Positions 1 through 7,925 of a stretch of 64,000 nucleotides of DNA are shown here, in pieces. The notes under the pieces are model-generated. The model did no database searches and was not told the DNA's origin. It saw nothing but the letters and a program-made list of their open reading frames with translations. Source of the stretch: Bradyrhizobium sp. NP1 (GTDB lineage Bacteria; Pseudomonadota; Alphaproteobacteria; Rhizobiales; Xanthobacteraceae); contig NZ_CP127385.1 of the NCBI RefSeq assembly GCF_030378205.1, positions 2,892,001 through 2,956,000 on the forward strand, in the 5' to 3' direction. The stretch's first letter is position 1. The number at the start of each line of letters is the position of its first letter. Position numbers and translations under genes: made by a program.

Positions 1-1
1 A

Positions 2-2932
2 GAGCTCGCGCAGTTCTATTACGACCGGGCCAATGCGCGCTCGCAGCTCGGCCGGCTGGCCGATGCGATCGCCGACGCCAACAAGGCCGCCGAGGTCGGC
101 CGCGGGGTCGTCGACTTCAATATGATGGGGCGGCTCATGCTGTTCGCCGGGCTGCAATACGCAACCGCCGGCGACCCCAAACATGCGCTCGAAATCTATC
201 AGCGTGTGCTTCGCGAAGCCGCCTCGATGCCCGGCGCCAAGGGCTTTCAGTTCAGCACCTATCGACAGATGGCCGGCGTCGTCGTTCAGATGGGCGATAT
301 CGCCCAGGCCGAAGGCTATCTGCAGCGCGCCCTTACCGGCATCCGCGAGGCGCGAACCAGCGGCCATCCCGCGTGGAGGGCATCCTACGCCAAATACGGA
401 CAGGCCTGGGAATCCGACATCGACTACACCCGGGCCATCATTGCCGAGGCGAGGGGGCGGTTCGCCGAGGCGGAGGCGGCCTATCGCACGGCGGAGCAGC
501 GCAAGCGGGCCAGCATGAAGGCCTTGCTGGCCTCGGAGAATCCGCCGACCGAATCCACGCTGCTGCAGGCGATCGATACGACGGCGGTCTGTCAGGCGCG
601 GATGAAGGCCGCCCAGGGCAGGCTCGCCGAAGCCGAAGTGGACGCGCGCCGCGCGCTGCTGGCACGGCTGAAGGATGTCGGCAAGTACAATGGCATGATG
701 CCCTATTATGTGACCGGGCTTGCTTCCATCCTCGTCGAGCAGGGCCGCTACCCGGAGGCCGAGCAGCTCGCGCGGGTGGCGCTCGAGATCAACAAGACGG
801 TCGGTTCGGCCGACAATTCGCAATCCAGGGTGCAACTGCTGGCCCGGCTCGGCGGCGTCCTCTATCTGGAGCGCAAGAACGACGAGGCAGGCCTGGTCTA
901 TGACGCGATCGACAAGGCGATCGCCGATTGGGAACCGCAGCGGCGGCTGGTCTTCGAACTCAACCCGTCGCGGATTCTGTCGCTCTATGCTTCCGGTCAG
1001 ACTGCGGCCGGAATCGCCGCCGCCGAAGAGTTGGTGAAGAAGCTGACGGCCCGGCTCGGCGAAAGTCACGCCGATACCGCAGGGGCGCGCGCTGTGTTCG
1101 CGATGGGCCTGGCGCGGGCGGGGCGGAACGCCGATGCGGCCCGCGAGTTCAGGGCCGCGATCCCGGTCATGATATCGGCCTCCCGCGAGGGCGCCGATGA
1201 CGAGGGCTCCGGCTCGGTCGCTGCGCGCAGCCTGCGCCTGCAGGTGTCGGTCGAGAACTATCTCGCCATGCTCGCGCGGGACAAGGACCGCACAGGTGAG
1301 ATCGGCGAGGAGACGTTCGGTCTTGCCGACGCGGTGCGCGGTCACGCGGTGCAGCAGGCGCTGGCAGCGTCGAGCGCGCGGGCCGCGGCCAGGGATCCGG
1401 CCCTTGCCGAGCTGGTGCGCAAGGAGCAGGACCTCGCCAAGCAGGTGAACGCGCAGCTTGGACTGCTGAACAACGTGTTGTCGCAGCCATCATCGGAGCG
1501 CGACGAAAAGGGCGTGCAGGCCATCAATGCCTCGATCAGCAGCCTGCGCGCCGAACGCGAGACGGCGCGGCGGGAGATCAATCAGAAATTCCCGGTCTAC
1601 GCCGATCTGGTGTCGCCGAAGTCCCCGACCGTCGCCGAAATTAGGGCGACGCTGGCGGATGGGGAGGCGATGCTGTCCTTCTACTTCGGCCAGACCGGAA
1701 GCTTCGTATGGGCGGTTCCCAAAAGCGGCGGGGTGGCGTTTGCGGAGATCAAGGCAAAGAGCGCCGAGATCGAGGACAGGATCCGCAAGCTGCGCGAGGC
1801 GCTCGAACCGCAGGCGGCGATGGTTTCGGACATCCCCGCTTTCGACCTCAAGCTCGCCTACGAGCTCTATGGGTTGTTGCTGCAGCCGGTCGAGAGCGGA
1901 TGGAAGCCGGCCAAGAATCTGATCGTCGTGACCAACGGCGCGCTCGGCCTGCTGCCGCTGTCGCTGCTGCCGACCGCGCCGGCCGAGGTGGCGCAGGACG
2001 ACGATCCGCTGTTTGCCGGATATCGCAAGGTGCCATGGCTGGCACGCACGCATGCGGTGACGACTGTCCCGTCGGCGGCGGCCCTGCGCACGCTCAGGCA
2101 GCTTCCGCCGGGCAAGCCCGGCCGCGGCGAACTGGTTGGATTCGGCGATCCCTATTTCAGCAAGGAGCAGGAGGCCGAAGCGGCCTCGGCCGAAAGCACT
2201 GTCCGGGTGGCCGATGCCGGCACCACGACGACGCGGGGCCTGCCCCTGAAGCGCCGGAGCAGCCCGAAGCTGGAGGGCGTCGACAGCGCCGAACTGGGGC
2301 TCTTGCCGCGTCTTCCCGACACCGCCGACGAACTGAAATCGATCGCGCTGGCGCTGCAGGCCGATCCTTCGAAGGTGCTCTATCTCGGCAAGGACGCTTC
2401 GGAGGCGAAGGTCAAGTCGCTGGACCTCTCCGGCTTCAAGGTGCTGGCGTTTGCGACCCACGGCCTCGTTCCAGGCGAGCTGAACGGATTGAGCCAGCCG
2501 GCGCTTGCGCTGTCGTCGCCGGCGATTACGGGCGAGGAAGGCGATGGCCTGCTGACCATGGAGGAAATCCTCGGTCTGAAGCTCGATGCCGACTGGGTGG
2601 TGCTGTCGGCCTGCAACACCGGTGCGGGCGCAGGCGCCGGCGCCGAGGCGGCGTCCGGCCTCGGGCGCGCGTTCTTCTATGCTGGTACAAGGGCATTGCT
2701 GGTCACGAACTGGTCGGTGCATTCACAGTCGGCGCGTCAACTGGTCACGGACCTGTTCAAGCGGCAGGCCGACGATCCGAAGCTGGGGCGCGGCGAGGCA
2801 TTGCGGCAGGCGATGATGGCGCTTGCCGACGGACCAGGCTACGTCAACGCCGAGGGCAAGACTGAATTTGCCTATGCCCATCCGCTGTTCTGGGCGCCTT
2901 ACACGATCATCGGAGACGGCGGCGTCCGCTGA
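2..2932 (+). CDS. TPR-CHAT caspase-like protein, 5' end outside window
   Basis: The frame is open from base 2, well before the first internal ATG at 122, and the upstream codons read as another TPR helix pair, so the gene begins outside the window. Residues about 1-350 (counting from ATG 122) are tetratricopeptide-like repeats; a coiled stretch near 430-490 leads into a C-terminal CHAT domain (about 500-936). The caspase-type dyad is visible: His780 in FATHG and Cys831 in LSACNTG. CHAT domains are caspase-fold peptidases often joined to TPR protein-interaction repeats. It is the first visible gene of a tight operon with a secreted protein and two zinc-ribbon proteins. Substrate and trigger are unknown. 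No CRISPR effector lies nearby, so a Craspase role has no support here. Confidence 0.88.
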   Translation, partial: ELAQFYYDRANARSQLGRLADAIADANKAAEVGRGVVDFNMMGRLMLFAGLQYATAGDPKHALEIYQRVLREAASMPGAKGFQFSTYRQMAGVVVQMGDIAQAEGYLQRALTGIREARTSGHPAWRASYAKYGQAWESDIDYTRAIIAEARGRFAEAEAAYRTAEQRKRASMKALLASENPPTESTLLQAIDTTAVCQARMKAAQGRLAEAEVDARRALLARLKDVGKYNGMMPYYVTGLASILVEQGRYPEAEQLARVALEINKTVGSADNSQSRVQLLARLGGVLYLERKNDEAGLVYDAIDKAIADWEPQRRLVFELNPSRILSLYASGQTAAGIAAAEELVKKLTARLGESHADTAGARAVFAMGLARAGRNADAAREFRAAIPVMISASREGADDEGSGSVAARSLRLQVSVENYLAMLARDKDRTGEIGEETFGLADAVRGHAVQQALAASSARAAARDPALAELVRKEQDLAKQVNAQLGLLNNVLSQPSSERDEKGVQAINASISSLRAERETARREINQKFPVYADLVSPKSPTVAEIRATLADGEAMLSFYFGQTGSFVWAVPKSGGVAFAEIKAKSAEIEDRIRKLREALEPQAAMVSDIPAFDLKLAYELYGLLLQPVESGWKPAKNLIVVTNGALGLLPLSLLPTAPAEVAQDDDPLFAGYRKVPWLARTHAVTTVPSAAALRTLRQLPPGKPGRGELVGFGDPYFSKEQEAEAASAESTVRVADAGTTTTRGLPLKRRSSPKLEGVDSAELGLLPRLPDTADELKSIALALQADPSKVLYLGKDASEAKVKSLDLSGFKVLAFATHGLVPGELNGLSQPALALSSPAITGEEGDGLLTMEEILGLKLDADWVVLSACNTGAGAGAGAEAASGLGRAFFYAGTRALLVTNWSVHSQSARQLVTDLFKRQADDPKLGRGEALRQAMMALADGPGYVNAEGKTEFAYAHPLFWAPYTIIGDGGVR

Positions 2933-2964
2933 CATGGTTCGTCTCTCGCTGGAGAAAAAGAGTC

Positions 2965-3417
2965 TTGAGTAGACATGTTGCAAGAACGATATCGCTGGCG
3001 TGCATGGCAGCGGCCGTCCTGGCATTCAGCGAGGCCTATGCGACGCCATTGATCACCGAGGAGGAGGCCAAGCTGCCGCCGCCGAAGGGGGCGGTGGCGG
3101 TGGATCGGCGCGGCATCCTGCGGGGTCCCAAGGTCGATCTTGTCTCGCCCGGCGACACGGTGCGATCTCCGGTGCATCTGCAGCTCAAGTTCGAATCCTT
3201 TGGCGGTACCAAGATCGACCTCGAGTCGGTGAAGATGACCTTTCTGCGCACGCCGAATGTCGACCTCACGGCGCGGATCAAGCCGTTCATGCAGCTCAGC
3301 GGCGTCGATATGCCAAACGCCGAGCTGCCGCCCGGCGAATATATCGTCCGGGTCGACGTGAAGGACAGCGAGGGTCGTCCCGGTAGTGCCAGCTTCATCC
3401 TGAAGGTTTCGCCCTGA
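2965..3417 (+). CDS. Small secreted protein of unknown function
   Basis: A 150-residue protein starting with TTG; GGAG at 2951-2954 lies about 10 nt upstream, and the TTG start gives a complete signal peptide (basic MSRHVAR, hydrophobic core, cleavage near EAYA-TP at about residue 26). The ATG at 3004 would remove the positive N-region. The mature part is about 120 residues, lacks cysteine, and is rich in alternating hydrophobic residues with a C-terminal PPGEYIVRVDVKDSEG stretch, suggesting a single beta-sandwich of CopC or Ig-like type. It lies 32 nt after the CHAT gene and 7 nt before the next gene, so it is almost certainly co-transcribed. I do not recognise the family. Confidence 0.75.
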   Translation: MSRHVARTISLACMAAAVLAFSEAYATPLITEEEAKLPPPKGAVAVDRRGILRGPKVDLVSPGDTVRSPVHLQLKFESFGGTKIDLESVKMTFLRTPNVDLTARIKPFMQLSGVDMPNAELPPGEYIVRVDVKDSEGRPGSASFILKVSP

Positions 3418-3424
3418 TACGAGC

Positions 3425-3625
3425 ATGGATTGTCCGTACTGCCTGTCCACCAATGCCGAGGGCGCCCTGGTTTGCGCAGCCTGCTCGCGCGACATCGCGG
3501 TACCGGCGACGCTGATCGCCGAGCGGGACGATCTGCTCCGCAAGCGTGATCTCCTCCGCAACCAATTGCAGCAAGCGAGGAAGCAGCTCGAGATGATCGT
3601 CAAGCGTCGCAGAAAATCCGGCTGA
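3425..3625 (+). CDS. Small zinc-ribbon coiled-coil protein
   Basis: A 66-residue protein opening with MDCPYC and a second pair CAAC at residues 17-20, a four-cysteine zinc-ribbon pattern (CPxC-x12-CxxC). Residues about 32-62 form an uninterrupted charged helix with heptad-like leucines (DDLLRKRDLLRNQL) ending in a basic tail RRRK, which suggests a coiled coil for dimerisation or nucleic-acid contact. There is no signal peptide, so it is likely cytoplasmic. The next gene opens with a nearly identical zinc ribbon, so the two probably arose from one module. It starts 7 nt after the secreted-protein gene and ends 6 nt before the membrane protein. Confidence 0.7.
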   Translation: MDCPYCLSTNAEGALVCAACSRDIAVPATLIAERDDLLRKRDLLRNQLQQARKQLEMIVKRRRKSG

Positions 3626-3631
3626 CCGGCG

Positions 3632-4396
3632 ATGGAATGTCCGTTCTGCGCCGAAACCATCAAGAACGAAGCGGTCGCGTGCAAGCATTGCTCGCGCGAT
3701 CTGCGCGTCGTGCGGCCGGTGCTGCTGGAAATCCACGAGATCGTCGCCGAGCTGGAAGGGCTGCAGCGCGACCTTGACCGCGTCAATGCGAGGCTCGAGC
3801 GTTATCAGCACCCGCTGCGCTACATTCTCACCCACGCCGTCGCTTATGTCGCGATTCCCGCGCTGCTGCTCGTGGTTGCGCATGTCATCGTCACCATCGT
3901 GCTGGATGCGTCCCAGCTTTGGCTGCGCCTGGCCTCGGTGATCATTCCGCTGCTGTTCGGGTTCGCGGCGCGTGCGCTGAACAAGATCTGGATCGAAGAG
4001 GCGCTCGCGCTCGGCGTGGCGACGGCCGCCGTCAGCGTGACGTCGATGCTCACCGTCACCGGCCTTCACGATCACGTGCCGATATTGCCTTCTGTTCCGG
4101 TCGAGTGGCGTGAGGTGATCGAATATGGCACCAGTATTCTGCTTGCCTTTGTTTCGGGCAACATTCTCGGCATGCTGGTCTTCCAGGTATTGCCGAAGGT
4201 GCTTTCGGAAGGCGGCAAGCCGAACCCCGCCGCATTCAGGATTGCCCGTCTGCTGGGACAGCATGTCGGAGAGGAGCAGTTGCGCCGCCGCGCGCGCCTG
4301 ATCCAGGACCTGATTCAGACCGCGGGGCCGCTGGCCGGCGTCGCGATCACGGCGGTCGGTTCGATCTATACCGGTCTGCGCGGAATTCTGGGCTAG
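3632..4396 (+). CDS. Zinc-ribbon membrane protein
   Basis: This 254-residue protein begins with MECPFCAETIKNEAVACKHC, a complete zinc ribbon, followed by a coiled stretch at about 30-57 and then by four hydrophobic segments (about 68-92, 95-115, 122-145 and 165-190). The C-terminal third is amphipathic and ends in a glycine-rich helix. The layout is a cytoplasmic metal-binding head on a multi-pass inner-membrane anchor. Its ribbon resembles that of the preceding 66-residue protein, so the pair may interact. It closes the CHAT operon; its TAG stop is part of the CTAG that opens a degenerate palindromic repeat. Family unknown to me. Confidence 0.75.
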   Translation: MECPFCAETIKNEAVACKHCSRDLRVVRPVLLEIHEIVAELEGLQRDLDRVNARLERYQHPLRYILTHAVAYVAIPALLLVVAHVIVTIVLDASQLWLRLASVIIPLLFGFAARALNKIWIEEALALGVATAAVSVTSMLTVTGLHDHVPILPSVPVEWREVIEYGTSILLAFVSGNILGMLVFQVLPKVLSEGGKPNPAAFRIARLLGQHVGEEQLRRRARLIQDLIQTAGPLAGVAITAVGSIYTGLRGILG

Positions 4397-4469: not shown

Positions 4470-5057
4470 TCAGCGCTTCCGGGTCGGCGCTTCCGCCTGC
4501 TTGGCCGGCGCCTCCGTCTGCACCTTGCAGCTTGCGGTGGCGAGTGAGGCGCGCGCCTGTGGCATCAGGCCCGGCTCCGGCGCCAGCGCCTTCATCACGA
4601 TCAACCCGGTGGCGGTCGGCGAATCGATGATCAGCCGGTCGGCCGCGGTGACTTCCTCGTCCTCCGGCAGATCGTTGTGCTGCGCCTCGGTCATCAGGTC
4701 GAGCTCGATCACCTTGCGCCCCGCCGAGCGGTCGTTGATCGCGTAGTAGGCGATCTCGTTGCGGGTATAGAACGACACCGAGGTGTAGGCCTGGCTCACA
4801 GGGACCGCGAGCTTGATCGGTCCGGTGGACAGATCGTAGCGGCAGATCGCGGTCGCAAACGCCGGGTCCATGAACGGCATCGGCGAGTTGCCGGGCTCGG
4901 CGAGCGGCAGCGGCGTCACCGCGTTGAGCTTGGTCATCGGAGTGAGGCGTGAATAGGCGTCCTGGGTCGCGATCCGCGGCAATGCGAGCACGCTGACCAG
5001 ATGCACCACGCCGCCGAGCAGCACGCCCGCGATGATCGTGAACACCAGCCGGATCAT
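4470..5057 (-). CDS. DUF1254-type membrane-anchored protein
   Basis: A 195-residue protein with one N-terminal transmembrane segment or signal anchor (about residues 4-24), followed by a domain that reads like DUF1254: conserved-looking PMPFMDPAFATAICRYDL and VSFYTRNEIAYYAINDR. The C-terminus is low-complexity (QTEAPAKQAEAPTRKR). Its ATG overlaps the stop of the upstream DUF1214 gene by 4 nt (ATGA), so translation is coupled. DUF1254 and DUF1214 usually occur together in one polypeptide; here they are two adjacent proteins, consistent with a complex. Function of the family is not established. Confidence 0.8.
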   Translation of the reverse strand: MIRLVFTIIAGVLLGGVVHLVSVLALPRIATQDAYSRLTPMTKLNAVTPLPLAEPGNSPMPFMDPAFATAICRYDLSTGPIKLAVPVSQAYTSVSFYTRNEIAYYAINDRSAGRKVIELDLMTEAQHNDLPEDEEVTAADRLIIDSPTATGLIVMKALAPEPGLMPQARASLATASCKVQTEAPAKQAEAPTRKR

Positions 5058-5632
5058 GGGCAGCCCACCGTCGCGATCGAGGGCATCGGCGCGTCGCGCT
5101 GCGTCCGCGTCGCAACCCCGACCGGCGTGTCGTAGAGCCGCAGCATCAGCGCATAGCGCTCGATGCCGCCGGTGGGCAGCCAGTTGCCGGCGCGCGAGCG
5201 CGAGGCGACGCGGATCTCGAAGGAGCCGTCGGAGCCGCGGATGATCTCCTGGCTGGTGAAGCCGTAACGCTGCAGCGCGTTGGCGACGAGATGGCCCTTC
5301 TGGTCGTAGAGCGTCAGCGTCCAGAACCGGGCAGCAGGCGTCACGCCGCTCACCACGACGTCGCAGCGCCCGTCGAGCGGCTTCTTCCTGTCGTCGGTGG
5401 TGGCGGTGAACGCGACGCCGTCGCCGGTGCCGATCGGCAGCTCGCCGTTGCGCACGATGGTGGCGCGCGAATAGGGATCGATGTCGGAGGTGCCGCTCTT
5501 CGGCCGCGCGGTCCAGGCGCCGATCGTCAGCGTGCCGAGATCGGTGCCGCGCGTCGCCGTCATCCAGGTTGAGCCGACGCCGACGAAGGCGGCGAGCAGG
5601 AGCGCGAGCAGGGTGATGAGGACGAGCCGCAC
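5054..5632 (-). CDS. DUF1214-type membrane-anchored protein
   Basis: The frame is open further upstream, but the GTG at 5632 gives a start 4 nt beyond the penicillin-binding protein stop and yields a clean N-terminus: a transmembrane segment (RLVLITLLALLLAAFVGVG) and then a DUF1214-like domain ending in RLYDTPVG. Earlier residues are arginine-rich and overlap the PBP gene, so I reject them. Length is 192 residues. Conserved-looking features include DPYSRATIVRNGELPIG and WTLTLYDQKGHLV. It is co-transcribed with the PBP upstream and with the DUF1254 protein downstream (4-nt overlap). Role unknown; the context suggests the cell envelope. Confidence 0.8.
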   Translation of the reverse strand: MRLVLITLLALLLAAFVGVGSTWMTATRGTDLGTLTIGAWTARPKSGTSDIDPYSRATIVRNGELPIGTGDGVAFTATTDDRKKPLDGRCDVVVSGVTPAARFWTLTLYDQKGHLVANALQRYGFTSQEIIRGSDGSFEIRVASRSRAGNWLPTGGIERYALMLRLYDTPVGVATRTQRDAPMPSIATVGCP

Positions 5633-5636
5633 GGGT

Positions 5637-7925
5637 CTAGTTCTTGCGTGGCGCCGCCGACGGGGTAGCGCTGCCCGGTGCCGCCGACGCAAGGCTTTCC
5701 GGGAAGGCCAGCGAACTCGACGAGACCGGCTTGGTCGGTTTGGTCGATTCCTCCGTGGTCTTGGTCGCGGTCTTGGCGGCTTCGTCGAGCAGCTTCTCGA
5801 CCCGCACCAGGATGTCGGCGCCGCGCCGCGTCAGCACCGGCGGCGGTCCCGGCTTGATCTCCGGCGGCTTCGGCGCGCCCGCCGCGGCGACGGTCGCCGG
5901 CGTCGTCGGCTGCGGCAGCTTCTGGCCCATGCCGATGCCCGCGATTTCCTTGATCTCGACGCCCTGATGCGCCACGGTCATGATGTCGTGCCAGGTCTGT
6001 GCCGGCAGCGAGCCGCCGGTCATGCGGTTGGTCGGCGAGTAGTCGTCATTGCCGTACCAGACCGCGCAGGTGAAGTTGCCGGTATAGCCGACGAACCAGG
6101 CGTCGCGATAGGCATTGGTGGTGCCGGTCTTGCCGGCGGTCGGAATGCCGTCGAGCGCGGCGCGGCGCGCGGTGCCTTCGCTGACGACGTGGCTCATCAT
6201 GCCCGCCATGTCGGCGGCGGTCGCAGGCGGAATGGCCTGCTTGGGCTTCGGCCCGTCGCGATCCCAGCGCCACACCAGATCGCCGGTGCCGGTTCGCACC
6301 TCGAGCACCGAATGCGGCGTCACCGACTTGCCTTTGTTGGGGAAGGTGGCGTAGGCGACCGCGTGCTCGATCACGGTAACTTCGTCGGAGCCGATCGGCA
6401 GCGACGGCGTGTCCGGCAGCGGCGCCTTGATGCCGAAGCGGCGCGCCACCTCGACGATCTTGGCGCGGCCGACCTTGGCCGGGTTCGGTGACTTGCCGCC
6501 GAGCGCGATCGAAAGCTTCACCGGCACCACGTTGATCGAGCGGGTGATCGCCTGCGTCAGCGTCACCGCGCCGGAATAGGAGTGGCCGTAGTTCTGCGGG
6601 CACCAGTTGCCGATGCAGACCGGGCCGTCGACCACGATCGAGGTCGGCTTGAAGCCGTTGAGCAGCGCCGTGGTGTAGACATAGGGTTTGAACGACGAGC
6701 CGGGCTGGCGGTAGGCGTCGGTGGCGCGGTTGAACTGGCTCGCGCCGTAGTCGCGGCCGCCGACCATGGCGCGGATGCCGCCGTCGAGGTCGGCGACGAC
6801 GGTCGCCGCCTGCGTCGCGTGATAGTCGCGGCCGAACTGGCGGAGCTGGTTCTCGATCGCCTCTTCGGCGGCGCGCTGCACGTTCATGTCGATCGCGGTC
6901 CGCACCACGAAGACGCGCTCGGTATAGGACCTCGGGAAGGTGTCGACGAGCTTGCGCATCTCGTCGAAGGCGTAGTCGAGATAGTAGTTCGGCGAGTTTT
7001 CGTCACGGCGGTCGACCGCGAATGCCGGGTTGCGGCGGGCGCCGAACACCTGGCCCTCGGTCATGAAGCCGGCATCGACCAGGTTGTCGAGCACGACGTT
7101 GGCGCGGGCGCGCGCCGCCGGCAGGTTGATGTGCGGCGCGTATTTGGTCGGCGCCTTGAACAGGCCAGCGAGCATCGCGGCTTCCGCGAGATTGACGTCG
7201 CGCACCGACTTGTTGAAGTAGAAATGCGCGGCGCCGTCGACGCCGAAGGTGCCGCCGCCCATATAGGCGCGGTCGAGATAGAGCTTGAGGATCTCGTTCT
7301 TGGTCAGTCGCGTCTCGAGCCAGACCGCGAGGAACGCTTCCTTGATCTTGCGCTCGATGGTGCGCTCGTTGTTGAGGAACAGGTTCTTGGCGAGCTGCTG
7401 GGTGATCGAGGAGCCGCCTTGGCGCACGCCGCCGGCCTGGGCGTTGGTGACGAGCGCGCGCGCCGTGCCCGCGATGTCGATGCCGAAATGGTCGTAGAAG
7501 CGGCGGTCTTCGGTGGCGAGCGTCGCCTTGATCAGGTTGTCCGGAAAATCTTCCAGCGGGATCGAGTCGTTGTGCTTGATGCCGCGGCTGCCGATCGGGT
7601 TGCCGTAGCGGTCGAGGAAGGTCACCGCGAGGTCGGATTTCTTCAGCCAGTCCTCGTCGGCGGTCTCGCGAAAGGCGGGGATCGCGAGGGTGAGCATCAA
7701 GAGCAGGCCGCCGAGCCCGATGGTGGCGGCTTCCGAGAGGGGCTCGATGAACACCCAGCGCTTCCAGCGGCCGACATAGAAGCGGTCCATGAAGGCCGAA
7801 TAGCGCTCATAGAGCTCGCGCGCGCCGCGCAGCGAAGAGAACAGCCCGGAATCAAAGCGCGCATCCAGATCCAGGCGGAAATTGTTGATCCGCCGCTTCC
7901 AATCCTCTGGGATGATCGTGCGCAC
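5637..7925 (-). CDS. Bifunctional penicillin-binding protein 1A-type
   Basis: This 762-residue class A PBP polymerises glycan strands and cross-links peptidoglycan in the periplasm. A cytoplasmic N-tail precedes one transmembrane segment (about 63-84). The GT51 glycosyltransferase carries the catalytic Glu139 in ATEDRRFYDHFG and the GGSSITQQLAKN motif. The transpeptidase has Ser410 in SSFK, a SIN motif near 470 and Lys599 in KTGTT. The C-terminal 90 residues are Pro/Ala/Thr-rich. Length is typical for the family. It heads a - strand operon with DUF1214 and DUF1254 genes. Which PBP1 subtype it is cannot be settled by eye, so I give no symbol. Confidence 0.95.
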   Translation of the reverse strand: MRTIIPEDWKRRINNFRLDLDARFDSGLFSSLRGARELYERYSAFMDRFYVGRWKRWVFIEPLSEAATIGLGGLLLMLTLAIPAFRETADEDWLKKSDLAVTFLDRYGNPIGSRGIKHNDSIPLEDFPDNLIKATLATEDRRFYDHFGIDIAGTARALVTNAQAGGVRQGGSSITQQLAKNLFLNNERTIERKIKEAFLAVWLETRLTKNEILKLYLDRAYMGGGTFGVDGAAHFYFNKSVRDVNLAEAAMLAGLFKAPTKYAPHINLPAARARANVVLDNLVDAGFMTEGQVFGARRNPAFAVDRRDENSPNYYLDYAFDEMRKLVDTFPRSYTERVFVVRTAIDMNVQRAAEEAIENQLRQFGRDYHATQAATVVADLDGGIRAMVGGRDYGASQFNRATDAYRQPGSSFKPYVYTTALLNGFKPTSIVVDGPVCIGNWCPQNYGHSYSGAVTLTQAITRSINVVPVKLSIALGGKSPNPAKVGRAKIVEVARRFGIKAPLPDTPSLPIGSDEVTVIEHAVAYATFPNKGKSVTPHSVLEVRTGTGDLVWRWDRDGPKPKQAIPPATAADMAGMMSHVVSEGTARRAALDGIPTAGKTGTTNAYRDAWFVGYTGNFTCAVWYGNDDYSPTNRMTGGSLPAQTWHDIMTVAHQGVEIKEIAGIGMGQKLPQPTTPATVAAAGAPKPPEIKPGPPPVLTRRGADILVRVEKLLDEAAKTATKTTEESTKPTKPVSSSSLAFPESLASAAPGSATPSAAPRKN

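Follow-up and report, generated by a model that had tools for sequence, protein, structure and literature searches.

Bradyrhizobium sp. NP1 harbours four consecutive genes at the start of the window analysed here, which is the whole stretch of 64,000 nucleotides at positions 2892001-2956000 of its single-contig genome of 7.7 Mb. These genes encode a TPR-CHAT protease, the small predicted exported protein SEC, the short zinc-ribbon protein ZR66 and the zinc-ribbon membrane protein ZRM (Table 1). Judged by gene neighbourhood in other genomes, CHAT-SEC-ZR66-ZRM is a real unit. Its constant pair, as far as sequence comparison goes, is SEC and a membrane-core protein (ZRM, or a counterpart with a TIR domain, TIR-TM), and the usual neighbour of this pair is a TPR-CHAT protein or a Peptidase_C14 (C14) protein with a signal-peptide-like start. 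The predicted head of the core protein is a zinc ribbon, often accompanied by the soluble paralogue ZR66, or a TIR domain. With protease and head varying around a constant SEC and membrane core, an inner-membrane coupler is favoured. We give about even chances to the proposal that the block encodes a transmembrane coupling device, in which SEC and membrane core connect a caspase-fold protease outside with the head inside. More tentatively, the block may represent a so far undescribed class of signalling across the membrane in Pseudomonadota, with a constant coupler, interchangeable CHAT or C14 proteases outside and a ribbon or TIR head inside, in which the outer caspase would control, or be controlled by, an inner machinery of TIR or ClpXP type.

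Table 1. Features of the four-gene block, in positions of the window
Feature	Position	Strand	Remark
TPR-CHAT protease, 3' part	1..2932	+	rest of the 1130-aa open frame lies upstream of the window edge
SEC, small predicted exported protein	2965..3417	+	start TTG 2965 or ATG about 3004
ZR66, 66-aa zinc ribbon plus helix	3425..3625	+	paralogue of the ZRM N-terminus
ZRM: zinc ribbon, helix, four-helix membrane core, basic C-terminus	3632..4396	+	
ZRM loop, residues 146-166, between helices 3 and 4	4067..4129	+	P..P.....W motif; predicted to face the periplasm

The original prediction placed the four genes in this order with spacers of 32, 7 and 6 nt, and these coordinates are exact. SEC and ZRM are present in one copy each in the genome of strain NP1. 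The search with ZRM as query gave 86 loci, 80 of which were kept with their flanks; these are not independent, because they belong mostly to Bradyrhizobium and Afipia. CHAT stands beside SEC-ZRM in 73 of the 80 loci, and five of the remaining seven possess a C14 gene in place of CHAT (L041, L044, L062, L067, and L077). As a synteny control, spacings above 600 nt were counted inside the block and across its edges. Such spacings were found in 5/73 loci between CHAT and SEC (one of them a split gene) and in 0/78 between SEC and ZRM, against 10/38 across the upstream edge and 8/10 across the downstream edge.

A sample of 149 genomes of the family, drawn irrespective of the finding, contained SEC in 26 genomes (29 loci) and ZRM in 25, every one of them a genome with SEC. 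Nineteen out of the 21 family genomes with a close CHAT possess SEC, versus 7/128 of the others (p 2.6e-16), where the limit for a close CHAT, 1000 bits, was set after the table had been inspected. By coordinates, CHAT adjoins 17 of the 29 SEC loci. Four of the other twelve have C14 (L129, L140, L141, and L142), and L140 seemingly corresponds to the same place as L067. The neighbours are not random around the CHAT gene, and the ribbon genes are linked to CHAT elsewhere (73/80 loci, and the family sample), the two points on which the original prediction had staked a conserved unit. In the order sample, 12 of 14 listed genomes of the own genus have the core; genome G659 of this sample was dropped (45-residue match), SEC and caspase genes not being found in its stretch. 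The class sample of 385 genomes revealed SEC in 10 and ZRM in 11, four of the latter long matches, and seven further genomes, in which only the ribbon was matched over 23-28 residues, were dropped. Among the 398 genomes of the phylum sample SEC was found in 12, corresponding to ten of the own genus, G043 and G1076.

C14 genes occur within 5 kb in 10 of 20 SEC/ZRM loci that lack CHAT, in six arrangements. The expectation is 0.0165 per locus, with the own genome as the only background (11 C14 genes in 7.7 Mb), and P is 1.3e-11 for at least 9/20 loci, or 6.5e-7 for at least 6/20 when the arrangements alone are counted. The 20 loci consist of seven from the ZRM query, eleven from the family sample, G043 and G893; G518 was excluded as a copy of L067, going by the length of its contig and its gene order, and the later-found G1076 was not counted. 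The C14 partners possess signal-peptide-like starts, and the His-Cys dyad is kept in 15 of the 16 C14-type partners read, with L123 as the exception. C14 proteins at the place of CHAT (L041, L044, and L141) share the four-Cys N-terminal domain of CHAT, which was detected in 0/11 C14 loci of the own genome. Strain NP1 possesses eleven Peptidase_C14 matches, and its second CHAT match overlaps one of them. Trees built from 28 chosen rows also point to exchange of the protease inside the block. L010 and L038 cluster with Afipia by their CHAT (100, quick tree) but with Bradyrhizobium by their ZRM (100/97). The trees give L050 as a second case of CHAT exchange.

Outside the family, SEC-ZRM lies near CHAT or C14 in 6 of the 7 lineages seen, as far as the records identify them, Magnetospirillum being the exception. 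In G043, C14 is divergent from ZRM, and in G893 a ZRM-SEC pair faces a TPR-C14 gene. G1076 possesses SEC-ZRM-C14-SEC on a single strand and a second, divergent C14. In the betaproteobacterium Variovorax paradoxus (CP063167.1), CHAT is divergent from SEC and a gene annotated as zinc ribbon domain-containing protein, and the Hyphomicrobiaceae locus L069 encodes CHAT with SEC and ZRM. In G044, the sixth of these lineages, CHAT is farther off, at about 3.5 kb. Among six remoter relatives of SEC without ZRM (L122-L127), four have a C14 or C14-like gene at a distance of up to about 5 kb. L125 has C14; L122, L123 and L126, all of one genus, have a caspase-like gene and a trypsin-like gene; and none was found in L127 or in L124, which lies at a contig end. 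The caspase-like gene of L123 has no His motif and exceeds the Pfam cut-off by 0.1 bit, and those of L122 and L126 were judged by eye. The caspase-like protein near the distant SEC of L122, L123 and L126 appears exported, and a TPR-like protein is also encoded nearby. In L125 (9846-16871), the SEC relative lies at the end of a series of genes on one strand, which also encode a TPR-Ig-C14 protein and lipoprotein-like products. The immunoglobulin-like (Ig-like) stretch of this C14 protein was considered as a fused SEC, which is not claimed, as the SEC profile gave only 2.0 bits.

The head of the core protein also varies. The locus of G529 (L149) encodes CHAT-SEC-TIR-TM and those of G500 (L146 and L147) encode SEC-TIR-TM, with TIR_2 at 40.7-42.8 bits in the three loci against a cut-off of 28. 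The search with the membrane part revealed 17 clusters, 15 of which carry a precomputed TIR_2. A profile built from TIR-type cores, with no ZRM included, recovers the ZRM of the window at 1.3e-21; therefore, the cores are homologous. Going by these matches, the ribbon is not indispensable, as a TIR domain replaces it in some relatives. In the TIR alignment, a glutamate (E89) is invariant among the heads of the relatives, at what we take to be the position of the catalytic Glu of TIR NADases. The TIR-TM gene of L146 (1790-2683, G500) seemingly carries the four-helix core inside the TIR domain, with the first TIR half before it and the half bearing WxxxE after it. This arrangement comes from a single metagenomic contig, and an assembly error is possible.

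The window edge cuts the CHAT gene, whose open frame starts at genome position 2891540, 461 bases upstream of the window. The full protein includes, in this order, a signal-peptide-like start, four conserved Cys (residues 39, 51, 64, and 75), TPRs and a CHAT domain, which scored 167.7 bits with PF12770 (cut-off 24) and so belongs to the CHAT family. The dyad reported from the first reading is intact, with His974 (FATHG) and Cys1025 (SACNTG) each kept in 68/69 aligned rows. The residue formerly given as Cys831 was the right one; its number had been counted from an internal ATG, and it corresponds to Cys1025 of the full 1130-aa frame. Because the full protein opens with a signal-peptide-like stretch, the CHAT protease is probably periplasmic. 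A crude signal-peptide test, which by itself does not keep out cytosolic proteins, was passed by 65/69 CHAT frames (frames of at least 1000 aa). The export call is based on the whole N-terminal pattern, the lipobox-like start of the L120 CHAT and the signal-like starts of the C14 partners, hydropathy alone not being discriminating. In G044, CHAT has a lipobox-like start. In L059 (4776-5351) and L084 (8586-9161), a frame with the four-Cys N-terminal domain and without protease domain stands between CHAT and SEC, and in L059 this domain is seemingly doubled. L050 and L065 possess two tandem CHAT domains upstream of SEC, and in L065 the ZRM gene is followed, about 6 kb further downstream, by a C14 gene.

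SEC matched no Pfam family above cut-off, and its Ig-like similarities are all sub-threshold. Its start is uncertain: the codon at position 2965 is TTG, and the databases contain an identical protein shorter by 13 residues. In alignment, the zinc ribbons of ZR66 and ZRM show two CxxC knuckles (C3, C6, C17, and C20), kept in 77/78 ZRM rows and in 80/80 ZR66 rows; a few of the latter (e.g. L069 and L081) actually represent the ZRM ribbon. Pfam zinc-ribbon matches of the ZR66 and ZRM of the window are below the cut-offs. The hydropathy of ZRM shows a long segment at 70-112, which we read as two helices, further segments at 127-143 and 170-183, and a weaker one near 236-246. Since four helices with a basic C-terminus inside would leave it there, the loop at residues 146-166 is predicted to face outward. 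Its P..P.....W motif is present in 74/74 ZRM proteins of at least 240 aa and in 16/16 TIR-TM clusters, as well as in G043, G1076, Variovorax and G893, and was obtained by chance in 23/5000 shuffles of the ZRM of the window.

These locations do not fit the arrangement drawn in the original prediction, in which the ribbons sense or recruit and CHAT is the effector. CHAT is apparently exported and the ribbons should face the cytoplasm; therefore, a ribbon is unlikely to touch the protease directly. The protease more likely makes contact with SEC and with the ZRM loop predicted to face outward. In the coupler favoured here, protease and SEC would bind, in the periplasm, the conserved loop that the core protein exposes there. 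An event in the periplasm, such as the entry of a phage, a foreign protein or damage to the envelope, would activate the protease, and cleavage of SEC or of the loop would alter the core protein, whose cytoplasmic head would relay the signal. A ribbon head might recruit or release a partner, plausibly one that serves ClpXP or Lon as substrate or adaptor, and a TIR head might relay by enzyme activity or by TIR-TIR contacts. The signal may also run the other way, with the head sensing and the protease acting outside. Regulated proteolysis by DegS-RseP-RseA-ClpXP likewise joins a periplasmic protease, a membrane protein and cytoplasmic ClpXP; it follows the same logic as the proposed coupler with other protein families. 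Discussion of bacterial CHAT and caspase-like proteases mostly treats them as cytosolic enzymes of defence or death. If the coupler holds, caspase-like cleavage would be tied to inner-membrane signalling, with CHAT and C14 interchangeable at an apparently exported position, and exported bacterial caspases without known role would gain named partners and a candidate loop.

Several observations weigh against the coupler. In the family sample, no caspase-fold gene lies near eight of the 29 SEC loci (L130, L133, L134, L135, L136, L138, L146, and L147), although L146 and L147 are on contigs of 5.6 and 5.2 kb, and L133 has a C14 fragment about 7.8 kb off. Both Magnetospirillum loci also lack a caspase-fold gene in the stretch examined. 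A close CHAT without SEC occurs in G389 and G514, and in G044 CHAT is divergent and lies about 3.5 kb from SEC/ZRM, with one unrelated gene between. The core proteins of L147 and L134 do not carry the full loop motif, and no cleavage site was recognisable. Moreover, the export call reads the N-terminal pattern with no trained predictor, and N-terminal hydropathy also rises in cytosolic controls (Lon 2.16). The loci without protease and the CHAT genes without SEC would suit neighbours without joint function, that is, an old cluster kept or moved together whose proteins work separately. We regard this as very unlikely, given that two protease families are swapped at the same place in six arrangements, and given the flank controls and the distant lineages.

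Genes clpP and clpX are normally adjacent. In the 113 loci and the window that were scanned, the block sits inside the tig-clpP-clpX-lon cluster, in the same orientation as clpP and clpX and between the two, in 13 loci with CHAT (L043, L046, L048, L049, L050, L052, L054, L055, L058, L065, L071, L073, and L151) and 3 without CHAT (L133, L135, and L138). This placement belongs to Afipia and some relatives; three further loci show one side only, and three other family loci are near tgt and queA. The insertion between clpP and clpX favours envelope protein quality control, in which the exported protease and SEC would remove or mark damaged periplasmic proteins and ZRM/ZR66 would link to ClpXP and Lon, as a housekeeping stress unit without dedicated signalling. 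The presence of the block in 12/14 same-genus genomes also agrees with it, as mobile defence genes tend to be patchy. We nevertheless consider quality control improbable, since the block of the window is not near these genes (neither the window nor L003, which covers the upstream sequence, shows tig, clpP, clpX or lon), TIR heads suit signalling or immunity better, and the clp position may be a single inherited insertion.

Conflict systems often contain TIR, CHAT and caspase domains (see PMC7159879 and PMC8195603, available sections). This speaks for an anti-phage or cell-death system in which the exported protease is switched on when a phage enters or the envelope is damaged, and the TIR or ribbon head kills or arrests the cell. 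PADLOC matches in relatives point the same way, namely ThsB for the TIR protein of L149 (7.3e-6) and caspase models for 3/3 C14 proteins tested. SEC was detected in 2/72,556 plasmid records, a 2.5 Mb Variovorax replicon and a conjugative Bradyrhizobium plasmid with CHAT and SEC but no ZRM, and the latter record also speaks for such a system. However, SEC is absent from the 50,697 phage records searched, is rare among the plasmids and is near-constant in the genus. In addition, the full CHAT of the window has no PADLOC match at 1e-3, and the other three proteins have none that is significant (best 0.08). An anti-phage or cell-death role is thus an unlikely explanation in our estimate. On the Bradyrhizobium japonicum plasmid NZ_CP126014.1 (L170, conjugative), CHAT is divergent from SEC, without ZRM, and near transposases.

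Craspase, which is cytosolic, was the comparison made at first reading. It combines the TPR-CHAT protein Csx29 with Cas7-11, Csx30, Csx31 and a sigma factor, and its authors liken the control of Csx30 to the handling of RseA by DegS-RseP-ClpXP (PMC10028731, available sections). The block resembles it in its TPR-CHAT protease, which has the His-Cys dyad, and in the small genes that accompany it. Unlike in the RNA-guided Craspase, there is no RAMP protein here, the protease is apparently exported, and the partners are a membrane and an exported protein. The comparison thus fails on the RAMP protein, as PF03787 gave 0 matches in the own genome and matches in 4/14 control genomes, and apparently also on compartment, going by the N-terminal pattern. 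A Craspase-like RNA-guided protease, for which the TPR-CHAT architecture with the dyad would speak, is extremely improbable given the missing RAMP proteins and the signal-peptide-like start of CHAT. By the same PF03787 search, the own genome has no Cas7-11 (fused RAMP proteins), a component of Craspase / type III-E CASP. SEC, ZR66 and ZRM gave no significant NCBIfam or PADLOC match, in searches not aimed at Csx30, Csx31 or CASP-sigma.

Many bacterial metacaspases (Peptidase_C14) possess an N-terminal helix, a possible signal peptide, and metacaspase operons are common, 70/217 of them without known function (PMC3501461, available sections). The same sections name no SEC or zinc-ribbon membrane partner for these operons, and CHAT is nowhere mentioned in the paper. 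The NucA-multiple-peptidase conflict systems of Alphaproteobacteria (System 3) have a core of NucA endonuclease and trypsin-like peptidase (PMC7159879, available sections). They resemble the block in having several peptidases per locus, the same bacterial class and membrane segments, but no NucA or trypsin-like gene was recognised beside the block of the window, trypsin-like genes being found only near L122, L123 and L126. A description of the CHAT/SEC/zinc-ribbon set was not found in searches of the open-access PMC literature, and one elsewhere is possible; PMC10907252, in its available sections, covers other systems.

An upstream lipoprotein gene (L003 8490-9251) was considered as a fifth member of the block. 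It accompanies CHAT in 38 loci of the ZRM query, more than 600 nt apart in 10 of them, and was rejected. On the other side, overlapping DUF1254 and DUF1214 genes adjoin the block in the window (4470-5692, minus strand), beside a PBP1A-family gene (5637-7925). The DUF1254/DUF1214 neighbours are present in only 10 of the 80 ZRM-query loci, mostly kilobases off.

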